This document shows positions 3,687 to 12,884 of a stretch of DNA of 64,000 nucleotides, one piece after another. The notes under the pieces are model-generated. The model made no database searches. It saw only the letters and a program-made list of their open reading frames with translations, and had not been told where the DNA came from. Both the position numbers and the translations under genes were made by a program. Location of the stretch: NCBI RefSeq assembly GCF_014161445.1, contig NZ_JABBXA010000001.1, positions 434,001 to 498,000 on the forward strand, written 5' to 3'. The stretch is from Microbispora sp. H13382. Its GTDB lineage: Bacteria > Actinomycetota > Actinomycetes > Streptosporangiales > Streptosporangiaceae. Position 1 is the first letter of the stretch. The number at the start of each line of letters is the position of its first letter.

Positions 3687-6572
3687 TCAGCCGTCTCCGG
3701 CGGCGGCGTGCCCGCCGTCGAGCAGGGCCAGCTCCTCGCGGGCGAAGCCCATCGTGTAGGCGGCGCCATACTTCTCCGCCACGGCGAGGGCCTCCAGCAG
3801 GTACTCGCGGGCCTTGTCGAAGGCGCCCTTGAGCCGCTCGGCGCGCCCCAAGGGGGCCAGGCACCGCAGCTCCATGACGCGGTGATGTCTCTCCCTGCTC
3901 AGGGTGAGAGCCTTCCGGTAGACGATCGCCGCGGACCAGGGGTCGTTCTGCTTCTCGTGCACCTCGGCCAGGCCGAGCAGCGCCTCTCCCATGTGCATGG
4001 GGTCCCCTGCCTGTTTCGCGAGGCCATCGAGCTCGCGCCACGTCGCTCTGGCCTCCGCCACGTGGCCGAGACCGAGCTGCGCCGTGCCGATGCCCGTGAG
4101 AGCATGCCGTTCGCCCACCGCCGCCCCGATCTTCCTGGCGATGCGAAGCTGCTCCCACGCCGACGCCAGGGCTTCTTCGTACCGGTGCAGTGCGTTGAGC
4201 ACCACACAGAGATTGCCCAGGGCCCTCATGCGCGCGAAGGAATCCCCGGCGGTGCGGCGAAGGTCCACCTCGGCACGCTGGTGGACGAGCGCCTCCTCGT
4301 TGCGTCCCGCCGGGCCCAGCCCCATGGCGATGTATCCGTGCGCGAGGGCCGAGATCTCCGGGTCCGCGAGGCGCTCACCTACTTCGAGTGCCTGACGGCC
4401 GAGGGGCAGGATGTCGTTGCGGTGTCCGATGAAGGTGAAGGGCCATTGACAGGAGAAGCCGAGATGGGCGCCGGAGCGCGCGAGGGAGGGATCGCGCGAC
4501 GCCGTCGCCTGGGCCGCCACGGCGAGGATGTTGGGGCGTTCACGCTCCAGCCACGCGGACGCGTCCGCGCCGTCGGTCAGAGCGAACGGCTCACGCTCGG
4601 CGAACTCGTGCGGGGGGTGCACCCGATGAGGGTCGATCAGTTTCATCGTGAGGCGCGCGGTCGTGCCGTACAGGCCGAGCACGCGGTCGAGCGCGTCGTC
4701 ACGGTCACGCTCGCTCAGGCGCCGCTCGGCAAGTTCCATGGCGAAGAGCCGCACCAGGTCATGGAGGCGGAACCGGCCCTGCTCACCGGGTTCGGCCAGA
4801 TTCGCCCGCATCAGGCGGGACACGGCTCGCTCCGCCGCGTCCCGCGGCGTGTCGAGAAGGGCCGCCACGACCTCGGCTGTGGCGTCCGGTGTGCGCAGGA
4901 CGCCCAGATGACACAGGGCCGCGGCCGCCGCCCGGTCGAGCTCGTGCCCGCTCCCCGCCAGCACGTCGTGACTGAGCTGGAGGCTGGCGCGCACGGCGAG
5001 GTCGCCCGACTCCAGCTCGTGCAGCGCCCGCCGTTCGTCCCGCAGCCGCGAGTTGAGATGGGACACAGGCGTGTAGCGGCTCTCCGACAGGCGCGCGGCC
5101 GCCAGGCGGAGGGCGAGGGGCAGCCCGCCGCAGAGGTCCACGAGCTCGGTGGCGGCGGCAGGGTCGGCGGCGACCCGCTCGGCGCCGATCAGTTTCGCCA
5201 GCATGGCGACCGACTCCGACCTCTGCATCCTGCCGAGGACGAGCTGCACACAGTCGTCGGCCACAGCGAACGACTCCCGGCTCGTGACGAGCAGGGCGTT
5301 CCCGGCCGGCAGGCCCAGCAGAGGGCGGACCTGCTCCGGGCCGGACGCGTCGTCCAGCACGATCAGCGTGTGCCGGCCCACCAGGCGGTCCCTGAGCATG
5401 GTCGCGGCCTCGTCCGGGTCGGACGGGACCGCCTCCGGGTGCACGCCGAGGCTCCGCAGCAGCCTCCCGAGCAGGTCGAGGGGGTTGAGCCGTACGACTC
5501 CCGGCGTCGCCCCGAGCATGTTCAGGTACAGCTGGCCGTCCGGATAGTGATCGCTCACCGTGTGCGCGGCGCGTACGGCGAGGGTCGACTTCCCCGCTCC
5601 CGCCGTGCCGGTGACGGCCACCACCGCCTGCGGGTCGCTTCCGTCCCAGGGCGCGAGCAGCGCGCGCAGGCGCACCACCGTGTCCGTCCGCCCCACGAAG
5701 ACCTGCGGATCGCGCGGGAGCTGACGCGGCCGGACGACCTCCGCGGGAGCGGCGACAGGCGTGGGGGACGGCGACGCATCGAGAGAGGGGTCCGCGCGCA
5801 GAATCAGCTCGTACGCCCGCCGCAGGGACTCGCCCGGATCGACGCCGAGCCGTTCGGCGAGCAGACGCCTGGCGTCGTGGAAGACCTCCAGCGACTCCGC
5901 CTGCCGTCCGCAGCGGTAGAGCGCGAGCATCTGCAGTTCCCGGGCCCGCTCCCGCAGCGGGGCCTCCGCGGTCAGCCCGACGAGCGCGTCGAGCGACTCC
6001 TGGCGCCGGCCCAGCCGCAGCAGCGCGTCGGCCTGGTCCTCCCGGGCCGTCAGCCGCATGCCCTCCAGCCGGGCCCGCTCCGCCTCGCAGAAGGGGCCGG
6101 GAAGGCCGCCCAGGGCGGGGCCCGCCCACAGTCCCAGCGCGGCCTGCAGTTCGCACAGCCAATCGCCGAGGTCCTCCTTGCCCTGGTAGCGGCGAGCCTC
6201 CGCTAGGCGCTGCTCGAACTCCTCGGCGTCGGTACGGCACGCGGAGCGTGCCAGGCTGTAGCCGCTCGCGGAGTGGGTGAGCAGCCTGAACGGCCCACGC
6301 CTGCCTTGGTCCGGTTCGAGTAGCCTCCTCAGCCCGGCCACGTAGGTGTAGACGCTCTGCTCGGCCGTCTTCGGGGCGGCGCCGCCCCACAGATCGTCGA
6401 TGAGCTGTTCCTTCGGGACGATCCGCCCGGCCCTGGCGGCGAGCACGCACAGGGCGGCCCGCTGCAACGGCGGCCCCAGGTTCACCTGCCGGTCGTCCAG
6501 CCACGCGACCACCGGTCCGAGGACCCGGAGGCGGAGACCGGCCTGCCGCGCACCGAATCCGTCTCTCGCCAT
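3687..6572 (-). CDS. AfsR-like SARP regulator (wHTH-BTAD-NB-ARC-TPR), downstream copy
   Basis: Large regulator of 961 residues in the AfsR/DnrI/RedD class, which activates secondary metabolism or development genes. Order of domains: OmpR-type winged helix (about 15-95), bacterial transcriptional activator domain BTAD (about 100-245), NB-ARC ATPase with P-loop GTAGAGKST near residue 320 and Walker B LIVLDD, then C-terminal TPR-like repeats (about 650-950). The ATG at 6572 follows AAGGAGGG with 6 nt spacing, so the longer in-frame extension upstream is not used. It begins 26 bp after the stop of a closely similar gene on the same strand, implying an operon and a tandem duplication. It converges on pucR with a 15 bp gap. 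Target genes are unknown. Confidence 0.9.
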   Translation of the reverse strand: MARDGFGARQAGLRLRVLGPVVAWLDDRQVNLGPPLQRAALCVLAARAGRIVPKEQLIDDLWGGAAPKTAEQSVYTYVAGLRRLLEPDQGRRGPFRLLTHSASGYSLARSACRTDAEEFEQRLAEARRYQGKEDLGDWLCELQAALGLWAGPALGGLPGPFCEAERARLEGMRLTAREDQADALLRLGRRQESLDALVGLTAEAPLRERARELQMLALYRCGRQAESLEVFHDARRLLAERLGVDPGESLRRAYELILRADPSLDASPSPTPVAAPAEVVRPRQLPRDPQVFVGRTDTVVRLRALLAPWDGSDPQAVVAVTGTAGAGKSTLAVRAAHTVSDHYPDGQLYLNMLGATPGVVRLNPLDLLGRLLRSLGVHPEAVPSDPDEAATMLRDRLVGRHTLIVLDDASGPEQVRPLLGLPAGNALLVTSRESFAVADDCVQLVLGRMQRSESVAMLAKLIGAERVAADPAAATELVDLCGGLPLALRLAAARLSESRYTPVSHLNSRLRDERRALHELESGDLAVRASLQLSHDVLAGSGHELDRAAAAALCHLGVLRTPDATAEVVAALLDTPRDAAERAVSRLMRANLAEPGEQGRFRLHDLVRLFAMELAERRLSERDRDDALDRVLGLYGTTARLTMKLIDPHRVHPPHEFAEREPFALTDGADASAWLERERPNILAVAAQATASRDPSLARSGAHLGFSCQWPFTFIGHRNDILPLGRQALEVGERLADPEISALAHGYIAMGLGPAGRNEEALVHQRAEVDLRRTAGDSFARMRALGNLCVVLNALHRYEEALASAWEQLRIARKIGAAVGERHALTGIGTAQLGLGHVAEARATWRELDGLAKQAGDPMHMGEALLGLAEVHEKQNDPWSAAIVYRKALTLSRERHHRVMELRCLAPLGRAERLKGAFDKAREYLLEALAVAEKYGAAYTMGFAREELALLDGGHAAAGDG

Positions 6573-6598
6573 GAGCGTCCCTCCTTCGTGGCGTGGCG

Positions 6599-9538
6599 TC
6601 AGCGGATCGACGTGAGGTGAGCCGGAGGGGGCTGAGCGGAGTCCGAACGGGGGAAGGCCGCACGGATGGCCCACAGTTCGGCCTCCACCTCACGGAGTTC
6701 CTCGTCCCCGGATGACTGTGCGATCGGCAGCGCCTTCCGGGCGCAGGCCAGGGCCTGCTCCGGTTCGCCGAGCCGGCGGTGTGCTCTGGCGAGCAGGGTG
6801 AGGGACCGGCACTCGATTACCCGATGGCCGATCTCGATCGCACATCGCAGGCCGCGCTCCAGGTGGGACCTCGCCTTGAGCGCGTCGTCGCGGTCCAGGT
6901 GCAGCTTGGCGAGCATCACCAGAGCCGCGCTCTCCTGGTAGCGATCCCCTGCGGCGTGGGCGAGCGCGAGCCCTTCGCCGAGCAGGTTCATGGCCTCGGC
7001 CAGGTCACCCAGCTCCTCGCAGGCCCTTCCTCCGATCAGCAGCGAATGACGCTCACCGACGTCGGAGCCGATCTCCCTGGCGATCGTCCGCTGTGTCTCG
7101 GTGCACTCGCGTGCCTGCGCGTACTGCTTGAGAGTCAGGTAGGTGACAGCCAGGTTGCCCAGCGCTCGCATCTCGCCGAACCGGTCCATCAGCATGCGTC
7201 TCAGTTCCAGCTCGGCCCACTGGTGCGGCATGGCGTCGGAGGCCTGGCCGGTGTGAAGCAGGGCGGCGGCGAGCTGACCGTGCGCCAGGGACATCAACTC
7301 CAGGTCGCCGACTCGCTCGCCCACAGCCAGCGCCTGTCTGCTCAGGTGGAGGTGCTCTCGGCGGTACGCGCTCCTCGACAGCTGCCAGTACAGGGCGAAC
7401 CCGACGTAAGCCCCCCTGCGCGCGATGTCGTCGTCCTCGCTCACCAGCGCCTGCGACGCGGCCGCCACGACGTTCGCCAGCTCATCCTCCAGCCAGTTCC
7501 TTGCCTCGCCGGGAGAGGCGAGCGCGAGTGGGCGCTGCGGCACGGCGGGCCAGGGGAGCTGCACGCGGTGCGGATCCAGCACGGTGCTGGCCCGCCATGC
7601 CGTCGCGCCGTAGAACCCAAGCGCTCGCAGGAGGGCGCCCGCGCGGGCCTCGGGCGCGAGGCGGGTGTCCGCCAGCTCGATCGTGTAGAGGCGCACGAGG
7701 TCGTGCATGCGGAACCGGCCGGTGCCCGCGGCCTCCAGCAGGTGCGCGCGTACCAGGCGGTCGAGCGCGCGCTCCGCGGCGTCGGCGGGCTCGTCCACGA
7801 GGGCGGCCACGACGTGCGCCGTCACATCCGCCACATGGAGAAGGCCGAGATGGCACAGGACCCGCGCCGCCAGCCGGTCGAGGACGGCCTTGCCGCGGGC
7901 GAGGCTCTCGTAGCTGAGTTCGAGGCTGGAGCGCACGGCGATCTTGCCCGCCTCCAGTTCGTGCAGTGTCCGCCGCCGGTCCTCAAGCCGGTCGACCAGC
8001 TCCGCGGGCGTCCACTCCGGCCGGTCCACGAGCCGTGCGGCGGCCAGGCGGAGAGCCAGCGGCAGCCCGCCGCACAGGTCGGCCAGCCGGCCCGCAGCAG
8101 GGTCGGCCGCGATCCGCTCGGCCCCCACGAGTTTCGCGAGCATGGTGACGGCCTCCGACCGCAGCATGCTGCCGAGGACGAGCTGGACGCAGTCGTCGGT
8201 CACCGCGAACGACTCCCGGCTCGTGATCAGCACGCTGGTGCCGGCCGGTAGACCCAGGAGAGCGCGTACCTGCTCGGGCCCCGCCGCGTCGTCGAGCAGG
8301 ATGAGGGTCCTGCGGCCCTCCAACCGGTCGCGCAGCATGGCGGCGGCCTCGTCCACATCGGACGGTACGGCCTCGCCGGGCAGTCCCAGGGCGCGCAGGA
8401 GCCTGCCGAGCACGTCGATCGGCTTGAGCCGCTCCACACCCGGAGTCGACCCCAGGAGATTCACATAGAGCTGGCCGTCCGGGAACGCGTCGACGGCGGC
8501 GTGCGCGGCGTGGACCGCCAGGGCGGACTTTCCCGCTCCCGGGGCGCCGGTGACGGCGACCACCGCCTGCGGGGGCGCGCCGTCCCAGGGGGCGAGCAGC
8601 GATCGCAGGCGCACCCTCTCCTCCGGCCGGCCGACGAAGCAGTTCACCGCGCGGGGCAATTGGCGCGGAGGGCGCGGGGGCGGGGCATCGGCGCCGGCCG
8701 CCCGCTCGCCCGCCGGCGTGGGCGAGGGACCCGCCTGCCTGAGCGAGGGATCGGCCCGCAGGATCAGCTCGTACCGTTCCCGCAGCGTCTCGCCGGGATC
8801 GACCCCGAGCCGCTCCGCCAGGAGCCGCTTGACGTCCATGTACGTGTGCAGGGCGTCCGCCTGCCTGCCGCACCGGTAGAGCGCGAGCATGAGCAGGTCA
8901 CGGGCGCGCTCCCGAAGGGGAGCCTCGCCGACCAGTTCGGTCAGGGCGGCCGCCGCCTCCTGGTGCAGGTTCAGGCGGAGCAGCGCGTCGGCGCGATCCT
9001 CCCGCGCCGCCAGGCGCAACTCCTCGAGGCGGGCCCGCTCCGCCTCGGCGAACGGACCCGGTACGCCGCACAGGGCGGGGCCCGACCAGCACCCCACGGC
9101 GGCGTCCAGCGCGCGAAGGCAGCCGCGCAGGTCGCCGGCGCCGTCCAACCGGCGGGCCTCGGCCAGACGGCGCCCGAAGTCCTCGACGTCCACCTCGACC
9201 GGCCCGCGGGCCAGGACGTAGCCGCCCGACCGGGACAGCAGGACCGAGTAGGAACCTCGCCGGCCCCCCTTCGGCTCCAGTACCCGCCGCAGCCCGGCGA
9301 CATAGGTGTAGACGCTCTGCTCGGCGGTGTTCGGCGGGCGCTCCCCCCAGAGCCCGCCGATCAGGGCCTCCTTGGTCACGACCTGCCCCATCTGCGCGGC
9401 GAGCACGCACAGGGCCGCGCGCTGCAGAGGAGGTCCGAGGCCGACGCTCCGTTCGTCGCGCCACGCGGCCAGGGGCCCGAGCATCCGCAGGCGGCAGGGT
9501 GAGTACGCGGACGTTTTACGCTCATTCGCGCTATCCAT
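6599..9538 (-). CDS. AfsR-like SARP regulator (wHTH-BTAD-NB-ARC-TPR), upstream copy
   Basis: Paralogue of the next gene in the operon (979 residues). The same architecture is visible: winged helix, BTAD, NB-ARC (P-loop GAPGAGKSA, Walker B LILLDD) and a TPR C-terminus. Long stretches such as LGPPLQRAALCVLAA and SVYTYVAGLRR are shared by the two copies, indicating tandem duplication followed by divergence. The ATG at 9538 has GGTGGAG about 9 nt upstream and places the first strand of the winged helix at the usual distance. An in-frame ATG at 9718 would add 60 residues with no SARP similarity. A perfect TCTAGA dyad lies about 240 bp upstream. AfsR-type NB-ARC/TPR parts usually sense a signal, so the nearby peptide gene at 10.7 kb is of interest, but a link is inference. 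Confidence 0.9.
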   Translation of the reverse strand: MDSANERKTSAYSPCRLRMLGPLAAWRDERSVGLGPPLQRAALCVLAAQMGQVVTKEALIGGLWGERPPNTAEQSVYTYVAGLRRVLEPKGGRRGSYSVLLSRSGGYVLARGPVEVDVEDFGRRLAEARRLDGAGDLRGCLRALDAAVGCWSGPALCGVPGPFAEAERARLEELRLAAREDRADALLRLNLHQEAAAALTELVGEAPLRERARDLLMLALYRCGRQADALHTYMDVKRLLAERLGVDPGETLRERYELILRADPSLRQAGPSPTPAGERAAGADAPPPRPPRQLPRAVNCFVGRPEERVRLRSLLAPWDGAPPQAVVAVTGAPGAGKSALAVHAAHAAVDAFPDGQLYVNLLGSTPGVERLKPIDVLGRLLRALGLPGEAVPSDVDEAAAMLRDRLEGRRTLILLDDAAGPEQVRALLGLPAGTSVLITSRESFAVTDDCVQLVLGSMLRSEAVTMLAKLVGAERIAADPAAGRLADLCGGLPLALRLAAARLVDRPEWTPAELVDRLEDRRRTLHELEAGKIAVRSSLELSYESLARGKAVLDRLAARVLCHLGLLHVADVTAHVVAALVDEPADAAERALDRLVRAHLLEAAGTGRFRMHDLVRLYTIELADTRLAPEARAGALLRALGFYGATAWRASTVLDPHRVQLPWPAVPQRPLALASPGEARNWLEDELANVVAAASQALVSEDDDIARRGAYVGFALYWQLSRSAYRREHLHLSRQALAVGERVGDLELMSLAHGQLAAALLHTGQASDAMPHQWAELELRRMLMDRFGEMRALGNLAVTYLTLKQYAQARECTETQRTIAREIGSDVGERHSLLIGGRACEELGDLAEAMNLLGEGLALAHAAGDRYQESAALVMLAKLHLDRDDALKARSHLERGLRCAIEIGHRVIECRSLTLLARAHRRLGEPEQALACARKALPIAQSSGDEELREVEAELWAIRAAFPRSDSAQPPPAHLTSIR

Positions 9539-9770
9539 ACGTATGAACTCCACCTGGTAACGGCGTAGATGCAACCTGTGGATGACCGCGATCGGGCGAA
9601 ATGCCGCTCCCGTGCCCGGTACACGCCATGAGTCGCCGCTGCACTCGTCGCAACTGCACCCCGGCGGTTCCCCCCAAAACGGCGGCTTCGCGATGGCATC
9701 CCCGTGTTCGCCGGTCATCGGGCACGCCGTCGGGCCTGTTCCGGCAGAGCATCAAATATGCCATCTCCCA

Positions 9771-10451: not shown

Positions 10452-10589
10452 ATGTCGTTACGGGATTCGACTTCGGGGGCCGCCCTTGTCGGAAATTCTG
10501 ACCCGGACTGTGAGCGGAGCCTGTCAAGAACGCCGGCTCGGTTCCCCGCTGATCAATCGTCCGCCGCCGGGCGGCCGGGTGGACAGTAG
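10452..10589 (+). CDS. Possible 45-residue small ORF
   Basis: A short frame starting at ATG 10452, preceded by AGGAAAGG with 5 nt spacing, and ending 1 bp before a strong hairpin at 10591-10619. It would converge on the secreted-peptide gene and share its terminator. The product (MSLRDSTSGAALVGN...) has no recognised domain, no signal peptide and no membrane segment. Position and ribosome-binding site are the only support; it could equally be non-coding. Confidence 0.25.
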   Translation: MSLRDSTSGAALVGNSDPDCERSLSRTPARFPADQSSAAGRPGGQ

Positions 10590-10590
10590 T

Positions 10591-10619
10591 TCCCCGGCGG
10601 CAGGGTCGTCCGCCGGGGA
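10591..10619. terminator. Hairpin terminator after the small secreted-peptide gene
   Basis: Perfect 10 bp inverted repeat: TCCCCGGCGG (10591-10600) pairs with CCGCCGGGGA (10610-10619) around a 9 nt loop. It lies 33 bp past the stop of the peptide gene at 10653 and immediately after the possible convergent ORF ending at 10589, so it could work in both directions. There is no U-tract, as is common in actinobacteria. Confidence 0.65.
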
Positions 10620-10652
10620 CGGCCCGTCCCGCTCAAGCAGCAGCTACGTGGT

Positions 10653-10784
10653 TCAGCAGCAGCCGTTGTCGAACGCGTATCGCTGCAGAGGAGACGGGGC
10701 GGCGCTGTTGGCCGTAGCATTGCCACCAACGGTCACAAGGGCCAAAATCAGGGCGGTAAGTAGATACGAGGTTGGGCGGCGCAC
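10653..10784 (-). CDS. Small secreted peptide precursor, candidate pheromone (43 residues)
   Basis: Too short for routine gene finding but well formed. The GTG at 10784 is preceded by GGGAGA at normal spacing and the frame ends in TGA at 10653-10655. The product starts MRRPTS, has a hydrophobic core YLLTALILALVTVGG, then an Ala-rich processing region (NATA or TANSA), giving a mature tail of about 18 residues, NSAAPSPLQRYAFDNGCC. This is a classical Sec signal peptide plus short export product. A perfect hairpin follows 33 bp downstream. The gene is divergent from an XRE-TPR regulator 55 bp away, the arrangement of RRNPP pheromone genes such as papR or nprX. Codons are less GC-rich than in the neighbours (CTA, TAT, ATT, CTT). 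The pheromone role is inferred from context; a small secreted peptide of another kind, or modification through the C-terminal Cys-Cys, remain possible. Confidence 0.7.
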   Translation of the reverse strand: MRRPTSYLLTALILALVTVGGNATANSAAPSPLQRYAFDNGCC

Positions 10785-10839
10785 GGTGGATCTCCCATCA
10801 ACTCGGACTGCCAGGCCTACAATATTTCAGGAGTTGCCA
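10785..10839. promoter_or_regulatory. 55 bp divergent promoter between peptide gene and XRE-TPR regulator
   Basis: Contains TACAATATT near 10819-10827, a plausible -10 element for the regulator, followed by CAGGAG as its ribosome-binding site. On the other strand lies GGGAGA for the peptide gene. The two promoters must overlap, so the regulator could control both transcripts from one site. No clear inverted repeat was identified. Confidence 0.45.
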
Positions 10840-12132
10840 ATGGCCGCGCAAGATCTGGTCGGACAGCGCATCAAGGCGATACGGCGGCAGCGCGGGCTCT
10901 CGCAAGCGCAGTTGGCGCATCCTGAACTTTCCGACAGTTACGTATCACTCATCGAGAGCGGCAAGAGGACGCCGACGCCGGCCGTTCTCGAACTGCTCGC
11001 GCAGAAGCTCGACTGCTCGCTCACCTACCTCGTCAACGGCGTGACGGCCGAGCAGATGGAGGACCTCGAGGTCGGTCTCAGCTTCGCGCGGATGGCGCTC
11101 GAGAACGGCGAGGTCGCCGAGGCCCGCCGCAGGTACGCCGAACTGCTCGCGGACAACAACCTGCTGGGTCTCACCGCGCTCCGGGTGGAGGCCCGCTACG
11201 GGTACGCCCTGGCCCTGGAGGCGTGCGGCGAGCTCGGCGAGGCGATCTCGGTCCTCAACGAGCTCAACGGCTCCGAGGCGGAGGCGATGCCGCAGGAGCG
11301 CAAGATCGCCGTGGCGTTGGCGCTGTGCCGGTGCCACCGTGAGCGAGGTGACTTCTCCGCCGCCGTGCACGTGGGTGAGCAGACGCTCGCCGCCTTCGCG
11401 CGCAGCGGCTGGACCGACGAACTGGTCGAGCTCGGCGCCACCCTCCTGCTGGCGTACATGGTGCGCGGGGACATGCTGCGCGCGGGCCACTTCGCGAACG
11501 AACTGCTGGCGGCCGCCGAGACCCTCGGCACGTCCCGGGCGACGGTGGCGTCGTCCTGGAACGCGGCGCAGGTGCTGGAGAAGATCGGCAGGGGCGAGGA
11601 GGGCATGACGCTCCTCGAACGAGCGCTCGCCTTCCAGTCCGAGAACGGCGAACCCCGCAACCTCGCCCGGCTGCGCCAAGCCTACGCCTCCATGATGCTG
11701 CGGGTGCGTCCCGAGGAGGCGGAGCGGGCACGGGAGCTGCTCCTGCGGGCACAGCGGGAGCACGAGGCCTCCGCCACCAGCGCCTTCGACCGGGCGCGGA
11801 CCGCCTGCGTCCTCGCCTGGGCGGAGATCGTCCTCGACCGCCCGGACGGGGCCGTCGACCACCTCAGGGACGCGCTGGCGCACGTGCAGCACACCAGGAG
11901 CGGCCTCCTGGCCGGCGCCAACCTTCTGCTCGGCCAGGCGCACTTCCTGCTCCACCAGGACGGGGACGCCGCCGCGGCGCTCGACCTGGTCACCGGTTGG
12001 CTGGAGGATGCGCCGCAGACCCTGAAGGCCGCCGAGGACTGGATGAACGTGGCGGAGATGCGGCGGCGCATCGGCGACGACTCGCAGAGCGTGGCCGCCT
12101 ATCAGCGCGCCCTCGCCTGCGCCGGGCTGTAG
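10840..12132 (+). CDS. HTH-XRE / TPR regulator, RRNPP-like
   Basis: Cytoplasmic regulator of 430 residues. Residues about 8-62 form a Cro/C1-type helix-turn-helix (IKAIRRQRGLSQAQLAHPEL, then SDSYVSLIESGKRTPTPAVL). Residues about 75-425 are all-helical with TPR periodicity (for example ARRRYAELLADNN, YGYALALEACGELGEAI). The ATG at 10840 is chosen because CAGGAG precedes it by 6 nt and the HTH begins directly after; the open frame extends upstream without homology. Size and architecture match the RRNPP peptide-sensing regulators (PlcR, NprR, Rgg) and also actinobacterial XRE-TPR proteins of unknown ligand. The secreted-peptide gene encoded divergently 55 bp away makes peptide sensing the leading hypothesis. 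A hairpin at 12163-12189 ends the transcript. Confidence 0.85.
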   Translation: MAAQDLVGQRIKAIRRQRGLSQAQLAHPELSDSYVSLIESGKRTPTPAVLELLAQKLDCSLTYLVNGVTAEQMEDLEVGLSFARMALENGEVAEARRRYAELLADNNLLGLTALRVEARYGYALALEACGELGEAISVLNELNGSEAEAMPQERKIAVALALCRCHRERGDFSAAVHVGEQTLAAFARSGWTDELVELGATLLLAYMVRGDMLRAGHFANELLAAAETLGTSRATVASSWNAAQVLEKIGRGEEGMTLLERALAFQSENGEPRNLARLRQAYASMMLRVRPEEAERARELLLRAQREHEASATSAFDRARTACVLAWAEIVLDRPDGAVDHLRDALAHVQHTRSGLLAGANLLLGQAHFLLHQDGDAAAALDLVTGWLEDAPQTLKAAEDWMNVAEMRRRIGDDSQSVAAYQRALACAGL

Positions 12133-12317: not shown

Positions 12318-12884
12318 ATGAAGAGACCCTTCCTCGCCGCCTTCGCCGCGCTCCTGGCGGCTCTTCTGCTGTGTGCCGCGCCGGTCCTGCCGGCTCAGGC
12401 GCACACCTCGCTCAAGAGTAGCGACCCGCAGAAGAACGCCCAGGTCAAGACCTTGCAGAAGGTCACGCTCGAATTCGCGGACTCCGTTCAGTTCCCGGTC
12501 GTGGTCGTCCGCGGCGAGGACGGCAAGCGCTACGAGCAAGGCGCGCCGGCCGTGGACGGGCCCAAGGTCGCCCAGGCGGTGACCGAGCCCGTGCCCCCTG
12601 GCCGCTACACGATCGCGTGGCGGGTGGTCTCGCCCGACGGCCACCCGCTGGAGGGCGAGATCCCGTTCACCGTGATCGGCGACCAGTCGCTCGGCACGGC
12701 GACCTCGGCCGCCGCTCCCGGGGAGCCCGCCTCCGCGGCGGCGCCCTCCACGGCCGCGACGGCGCAGGCCACCGAGGCCGAAAGCGCCGGGCGGACGGGT
12801 GTGCCCGGCTGGATCTGGGCGGTGATCTTCGGGATCGCCGGCGTCGGCATAGGGATGTTCCTGAGCCTGCGGAAGAAGCCGTGA
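12318..12884 (+). CDS. CopC-domain copper resistance protein, membrane-anchored
   Basis: Exported copper-binding protein of 188 residues. Signal peptide at residues 1-31 ends in PAQA, leaving a mature N-terminal His (HTSLKSSDP), the usual first copper ligand of CopC. The CopC fold runs to about residue 120 with the typical WRVVSPDGHPLEGEIPFTV strand containing the second histidine. An Ala/Thr/Ser-rich linker follows (about 125-160), then a C-terminal transmembrane helix (VPGWIWAVIFGIAGVGIGMF) and a basic tail, so the domain is held outside the membrane. The downstream CopD-like gene overlaps by 4 bp (GTGA), implying translational coupling and a joint role in copper handling, probably for cytochrome oxidase. 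GGGGGTG precedes the ATG. Confidence 0.9.
   Translation: MKRPFLAAFAALLAALLLCAAPVLPAQAHTSLKSSDPQKNAQVKTLQKVTLEFADSVQFPVVVVRGEDGKRYEQGAPAVDGPKVAQAVTEPVPPGRYTIAWRVVSPDGHPLEGEIPFTVIGDQSLGTATSAAAPGEPASAAAPSTAATAQATEAESAGRTGVPGWIWAVIFGIAGVGIGMFLSLRKKP

Follow-up and report, generated by a model that had tools for sequence, protein, structure and literature searches.

A putative RRNPP-like peptide signal with a C-terminal Cys-Cys and its proposed HTH-TPR receptor in Microbispora and other Actinomycetota

Results and Discussion

A small gene divergent to an HTH-TPR regulator

In the window, i.e. the whole analysed stretch of 64,000 nucleotides from Microbispora sp. H13382, we found an open reading frame of 43 codons with a signal peptide (10653..10784, minus strand) that is divergent to a gene encoding an HTH-TPR regulator of 430 aa (10840..12132, plus strand). 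The two start codons are 55 bp apart, which confirmed the arrangement claimed in a preliminary description of this DNA. The small gene starts with GTG and encodes a propeptide (VRRPTSYLLTALILALVTVGGNATANSAAPSPLQRYAFDNGCC) with a signal peptide, a variable core and a C-terminal Cys-Cys (CC), laid out as an arginine pair, a hydrophobic stretch, an AxA-like exit and then a possible tail. Judged from the sequence, cleavage would take place after ..NATANSA and would release the putative secreted part APSPLQRYAFDNGCC (10656..10700, minus strand). The ribosome-binding site attributed to this gene was found as GGGAG (10792..10796, minus strand) with a 7-nt spacer to the start. Among the 101 divergent relatives that have CC as their exact end, 92 have a similar motif within 20 nt upstream, compared to 24% of random 20-mers from the same loci. 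The regulator gene is preceded by GGAG (10830..10833, plus strand). The small gene had also been described as having a terminator of its own. A strong G+C-rich hairpin indeed lies 3' of it (about 10581..10629, minus strand), and the 86-nt stretch with this hairpin folds at -43.9 kcal/mol (z -3.9), but it has no T-run and a scan for consensus terminators counted none behind the peptide gene, leaving a possible terminator only.

The peptide matched no family in Pfam, NCBIfam or PHROGs. All signal-peptide calls were made with our own hydrophobicity-and-charge rule and not with SignalP; this rule may undercount, because it missed the peptide of Streptomyces sp. ADI95-16, which was recovered by translating the annotated gene. 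The divergent intergenic region (10785..10839) closely resembles that of several Microbispora relatives, and many others have one of comparable length. A palindrome, ACTACCTGTAGT, was seen in the corresponding region of one f21 subclade (L110, L112, L114, L115 and L117), with a variant in L083, and is a candidate operator.

The regulator, which we propose to be an intracellular peptide receptor, starts with an XRE-type HTH domain (residues 8-68; 10861..11043, plus strand). HTH_3 matched residues 11-64 with an E-value of 6.9e-12, several TPR models matched as well, and residues 5-67 average 98-99% identity among close relatives. The remainder is a TPR domain (residues 70-427; 11047..12120, plus strand) with nine helix pairs in an AlphaFold2 model (mean pLDDT 91.3) computed from an alignment of 73 sequences, of which 72 contained HTH_3 and 71 contained TPR_12. 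NCBIfam matches of the regulator were all below the curated cut-offs, and those in PHROGs were mostly generic transcription regulators.

Among PDB sequences, PlcR (2qfc) was the best one matched across both HTH and TPR parts (E-value 3.2e-13, residues 3-192), followed by NprR over the TPR part (7e-9), and the HTH of ComR was also matched; the top scorers were designed TPR proteins. A Foldseek search with the model placed the PlcR-PapR7-DNA complex (3u3w) at rank 6 (TMq 0.38) and further matched NprR (5dbk; TMq 0.58, TMt 0.68) and phage Rap (TMq about 0.5). Designed TPR proteins and eukaryotic ones were frequent among these matches and scored like PlcR or better, and the likeness to PlcR, NprR and Rap may therefore be that of TPR proteins in general.

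Occurrence of the pair among related genomes

Four overlapping genome sets were searched for relatives of the regulator. Matches were obtained in 49 of 120 related genomes, in 67 of 394 from the class, in 208 of 297 from the order and, counting the window's own, in 8 of 396 from the phylum. Of these matches we studied a selection, namely 60 and 80 stretches and the loci L099-L140, giving together with the window 184 regulator ORFs, or 166 after identical proteins had been dropped. For 115 of these 166 regulators the adjacent DNA contained a signal-peptide-like ORF whose last eight residues include CC. A further nine had a W-type end, a class defined only after the ends had been inspected, one had another end, and for 41 no peptide was found (three of them at contig edges). 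The tally scored as lacking a peptide L164, where a CC peptide lies 3 kb off, and L089, where the peptide is further off. L048 was entered via a spurious codirectional CC ORF while its true CC peptide is divergent, which leaves the total unaffected, and four f21 loci were entered by their convergent peptide although a divergent one is present too.

The CC end was strongly tied to the vicinity of the regulator. Of the signal-peptide-like ORFs in the same 165 loci, 115 of 234 close to the regulator had this end, compared to two of 379 elsewhere (this 115 and the 115 regulators above are different counts, equal by coincidence), and the two ORFs elsewhere (L066, L164) resemble further members. It is near certain that the gene pair is real and widespread. 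The preliminary description had predicted a variable core and a fixed C-terminal motif beside orthologous regulators, and had named the absence of any conserved signal-peptide ORF there as the finding that would speak against it; the survey bore out the prediction.

CC formed the exact C-terminus in 101 divergent precursors, and in 47 of these position -3 was Y, F, W or H. Apart from the window's YAFDNGCC, the ends included GWADGSLCC, FSFDNGCC, NLLRLDCC, LANHLCC, MASLPCC, PYSLECC, YIYCC, GPRVHCC, WPGMCC, SPGDFCC and GGIWCC; in family f27 one to five extra residues sometimes follow the CC. The residues in front of the CC changed rapidly. Over 129 non-independent pairs with a TPR identity of 80% or more, the HTH stayed at 98-99% identity on average, while a drop in TPR identity from about 96% to 83% was accompanied by a drop from 90% to 71% in the signal part and from 80% to 30% in the ten residues before CC. 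From the codons of these pairs we estimated, crudely, a pN/pS of 0.86 for the signal part and of 2.1 for the core, the latter inflated by indels. The window and L039, for example, have a TPR identity of 92% and a signal part that is 88% the same, but their ends are YAFDNGCC and GWADGSLCC, respectively.

Of the 41 regulators for which no peptide was found, 19 belong to two clades of the GPRVHCC group (L188-L198, L206, L209, L211, L212, L075, L079, L103 and L180), and several of these 19 lie close to HIUase or purine permease genes. They are perhaps listeners only, or have been re-purposed. Service by a GPRVHCC peptide encoded elsewhere in the genome was considered and rejected, as the end pattern, searched as the exact end, was absent from all 19 genomes and present in three of three positive controls.

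Lineages with other peptide ends

One clade of ten regulators, fully supported in a FastTree tree, had no CC peptide. Nine of its ten peptides instead carried W-x-x-P-like ends, e.g. WGWPG, WNHPG, WSYPD and WQWPI, and the tenth (L069) ends in LGPLNNAE. Outside the class, an adjacent divergent signal-peptide-like ORF of 26-30 residues was present in seven of seven places, again without CC; here the ends were FPWGGT, FPGP, GYPWPK (twice), GFPWPK, NWPHVP and KWPWG. In L220 the W-type precursor has two copies of its end motif (SLGWTYPE..SAWTYAE) and in this resembles pheromone precursors with several copies; Bacillota are known to have RRNPPA systems with tandem propeptides (PMC11343458).

Receptor residues associated with the CC end

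We compared 111 CC-associated regulators that scored enough for alignment with 48 others, the W clade included. In the CC-associated group 58 TPR columns were conserved to 85% or more, and four of these were most depleted in the others: T201 in helix A4 (11440..11442, plus strand; 107/111 vs 15/48), and A237 (11548..11550, plus strand; 99/111 vs 14/48) and N241 (11560..11562, plus strand; 99/111 vs 10/48), both in helix A5, as well as N274 in helix A6 (11659..11661, plus strand; 99/111 vs 17/48). In the W clade A237 is replaced by Leu in ten of ten members, T201 by Gln in seven and N274 by Arg in seven, and N241 is kept in one. No out-of-class receptor (n=7) combines the four residues, although T201 and N241 are kept in L239, and N241 in L234 and L238. 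Among the 19 peptide-less regulators of the GPRVHCC group (17 and 2 in the two clades) T201 is kept in four compared to 13 of 13 CC-bearing relatives, A237 in ten and N274 in eleven; N241 is an exception in this group, since Glu is found there also in nine of the 13 CC-bearing relatives.

The association is not without gaps. L168 and L173 have CC-type receptor residues and no peptide visible nearby, and for L164 the CC peptide is only seen at the distance of 3 kb mentioned above. Two Streptomyces CC receptors keep T201 and N241, and L226 has the same residues and no visible peptide. A second HTH-TPR paralogue in the Microbispora genome (L098, the same place as L241; G000:C12:143335-144603) shares 33% identity with the regulator; no peptide was found at this locus, its residues at the four marker positions are A/L/Q/R, and it belongs to a clade of seven without peptide.

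When the comparison was reduced to phylogenetically independent pairs (n=11), T201 changed the same way as the peptide end in 5.1 pairs, the opposite way in 0.2 and showed no difference in 5.6 (median p 0.0625). The signal was weaker for the other three residues, with values for same and opposite way of 5.5 and 1.0 for A237, 3.7 and 0.2 for N241, and 3.5 and 0.7 for N274. The peptide end type thus appears to covary with residues of the TPR A helices, which is suggestive and not proof because 11 pairs represent few independent events. The importance that had been guessed for the C-terminal Cys-Cys is in this way supported both by its conservation and by the covariation, the latter at the suggestive level that is left after phylogenetic correction.

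In TPR superhelices the A helices line the inner face, and in known RRNPP receptors asparagines of the TPR groove hold the peptide backbone. By analogy, N241 and N274 could hold the backbone of the CC peptide. Sites that might read the variable core were sought by partial correlation: the best single site was reached in 2 of 200 permutations, and A helices were not enriched among the top 40 core-covarying sites (61 of 200 permutations reached their A-helix share). A disulfide between the peptide and Cys165 of the regulator was rejected, as the CC-peptide regulators L067, L109, L210, L215 and L217 have no Cys165 and the W clade keeps it.

Gene order and spread of the pair

The pair is mostly divergent but also occurs in convergent and codirectional arrangements. 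In nine loci of families f16 and f28 the peptide gene lies convergently behind the regulator, other loci of the same families being divergent, and in L156 (f16) it is codirectional and upstream of the regulator. Four related f21 loci (L142, L143, L144 and L149) have two different CC peptides around one regulator, a divergent and a convergent one, whose ends resemble each other (e.g. SPGDFCC and GGSDFCC). The persistence of the pair through such rearrangements argues against a mere shared promoter. L065 has a tandem duplication of the regulator gene and just one gene for a CC peptide.

CC peptides were found in nine families coded here as f1, f11, f16, f21, f22, f27, f28, f29 and f40, and additionally in named Nonomuraea and Streptomyces genomes. 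Nonomuraea gerenzanensis encodes a divergent CC peptide. In Streptomyces sp. ADI95-16 and two S. goshikiensis strains the CC peptide is codirectional with and downstream of the regulator and is annotated as hypothetical (WP_123083198.1, WP_008741297.1); its end is KDIPLCC, and behind it lie a second small gene and then a BTAD (SARP-type) gene. Streptomyces sp. NBC_01707 encodes a CC peptide (..GDLPLCC) 1.9 kb downstream of its regulator. Of eight plasmid or phage stretches (L223-L230) three, those of Streptomyces sp. ADI95-16, Streptomyces sp. NBC_01707 and N. gerenzanensis, contained a CC peptide and five (L224, L226, L228, L229 and L230) had none in the stretch examined. L225, L243 and L244 are large linear Streptomyces plasmids, on which the regulator and CC peptide genes adjoin a second small gene, a BTAD/SARP gene and sugar-related genes. 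Carriage by phages or viruses was not upheld: L230, an unverified fecal 'phage' record, contains a partial relative (63% covered, 35% identity) with the CC-type residues T/S/N/N at the four marker positions and no CC peptide in its stretch, and three viral-contig loci matched over the HTH only.

Proposed function and alternative explanations

We consider it likely, with a probability of roughly 0.8, that the pair is an RRNPP-like module of peptide signal and receptor in Actinomycetota with a C-terminal code of its own. Sec would export the 43-residue precursor by means of its signal peptide, and cleavage would leave a tail of about 5-18 residues with Cys-Cys at its end. This tail would build up outside the cell, so that density could be sensed, re-enter through an oligopeptide ABC importer, and bind in the inner groove of the regulator's TPR domain. 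Binding would then alter the regulator's DNA binding at the shared 55-bp promoter region, giving autoregulation, and at other targets. The terminal CC pair, preceded in about half of the peptides by an aromatic residue or His, may serve as a class anchor read by TPR helices A4-A6, and the variable core may provide species or strain specificity. The genome contains 14 SBP_bac_5 matches above cut-off.

An unlikely variant, which shares the TPR receptor with this module, is that the peptide acts on the producing cell only, as a signal-peptide remnant or within a self-sensing membrane loop, and conveys no population signal. The out-of-class precursors with their 26-30 residues, which hardly extend beyond a signal peptide, would fit it, whereas longer precursors carry tails behind AxA-like sites and their variable cores resemble specificity codes.

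It is quite improbable that the product of the small gene is a secreted antimicrobial, or a peptide of similar kind, under control of the regulator, and is thus an output and not a ligand. A small Cys-containing peptide with a signal sequence, a fast-evolving core and an adjacent regulator could be of that kind. Nevertheless, none of ten Pfam-checked representatives of the neighbouring genes, admittedly a small sample, was a gene for immunity, modification or dedicated peptide export, and the conserved part of the peptide is the extreme C-terminus, whose type goes with the TPR residues.

The neighbouring genes bear on a third alternative, namely that the peptide is a secreted metal or redox sensor that uses its vicinal cysteines to bind copper or to form a disulfide, with the regulator in a copper circuit with CopC and CopD/CtaG. 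Neighbour calls were crude (long ORFs, some of them antisense), and only Pfam-checked representatives are named here. A CopC gene lies right behind the regulator (12318-12884, plus strand), with a CopD/CtaG-type gene next in relatives, and both recur behind the regulator in the window's family, while the peptide side has recurrent purine-catabolism genes (PucR-type regulator, xanthine dehydrogenase, purine permease and HIUase). Clusters with a CopC representative were present in 50 of 134 loci and those with CopD/CtaG in 67, and both Cys are present in 115 of 166. However, other families with other neighbours, such as f21 with ribonucleotide reductase and EamA, keep the CC peptide, one clade has lost both Cys and retained the peptide gene, and Cys165 of the regulator does not track CC, all of which makes the copper circuit very doubtful.

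The two AfsR-like SARP/NB-ARC/TPR genes that lie in tandem downstream of the peptide gene and in the same direction (3687-6674 and 6599-9718, minus strand) had been suggested as outputs. A role as general outputs is not supported, since an AfsR-like or SARP gene was found in at least 21 of 134 loci, a lower bound from flanks of 3-6 kb, and 12 of these are Microbispora, the window included. The pair therefore has no constant partner among CopC, CopD/CtaG and SARP genes, each being present in only a part of the 134 loci.

That the small gene is due to chance or to faulty annotation next to an ordinary HTH-TPR regulator is scarcely conceivable, for despite the shortness of the ORF and the heuristic signal-peptide call, its start, ribosome-binding site, signal segment and CC recur across many genera and cluster near the regulator as counted above.

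Comparison to known systems

PlcR-PapR of the Bacillus cereus group, an RRNPP system in which a short exported peptide gene adjoins the receptor gene, resembles the Microbispora pair in its N-terminal XRE-type HTH followed by TPR as well as in the profile and fold matches. The differences are the other phylum, the longer regulator (430 aa vs 293), the CC-ended peptide and the mostly divergent orientation of the pair. NprR-NprX and Rap-Phr of Bacillus and phages have the TPR superhelix in common with the Microbispora regulator; to our knowledge, NprX and Phr peptides have no fixed Cys-Cys end, nor do we know of any other RRNPP peptide that has one. A doubled residue as a class code is also found in ComR-ComS of Streptococcus, with WW in ComS and CC in the actinobacterial peptide; ComS has its WW near the C-terminus and no classical signal peptide. 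Gamma-butyrolactone systems consist of a small molecule and a TetR-like receptor. They represent actinobacterial cell-to-cell signalling too, in Streptomyces (PMC13220807, as far as its available text goes), but with a small molecule in the place of a gene-encoded peptide and TPR receptor.

In the accessible portions of the literature, cell-density signals of Actinomycetota are typically small molecules (PMC10075063), and RRNPPA is treated as a family of Firmicutes in PMC9765709. The actinobacterial terms searched for occur neither in PMC9765709 nor in PMC12700828. The available sections of the 2026 review PMC13220807 name gamma-butyrolactones, not peptides, for Streptomyces. None of the titles and abstracts searched described an actinobacterial peptide that ends in CC and is partnered by an HTH-TPR protein. 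We provisionally regard the pair as an RRNPP-type variant in a phylum for which the literature searched holds no such description; the novelty is provisional because most subscription papers and preprints lay outside the scope of the search.

Significance

Going beyond the single pair, we think it rather probable that Actinomycetota hold an old and widespread peptide-pheromone language of RRNPP design with the C-terminal Cys-Cys as its class code, possibly read as free thiols or as a vicinal disulfide, that in side lineages the peptide end and the receptor groove changed together, the former to W-x-x-P or PW type, and that some Streptomyces carry the pair beside SARP-type regulators on large plasmids. 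If the free-thiol or vicinal-disulfide reading of the CC is true, the signal would be redox-dependent. The joint change of the peptide end and of residues in the receptor represents a natural experiment on language change in TPR receptors. Actinobacteria are the makers of many antibiotics, and a gene-encoded peptide with a recognisable end would, if true, be a large overlooked class of signals. Such a CC peptide signal would extend RRNPP-type signalling to a second phylum and might help to switch on silent pathways.
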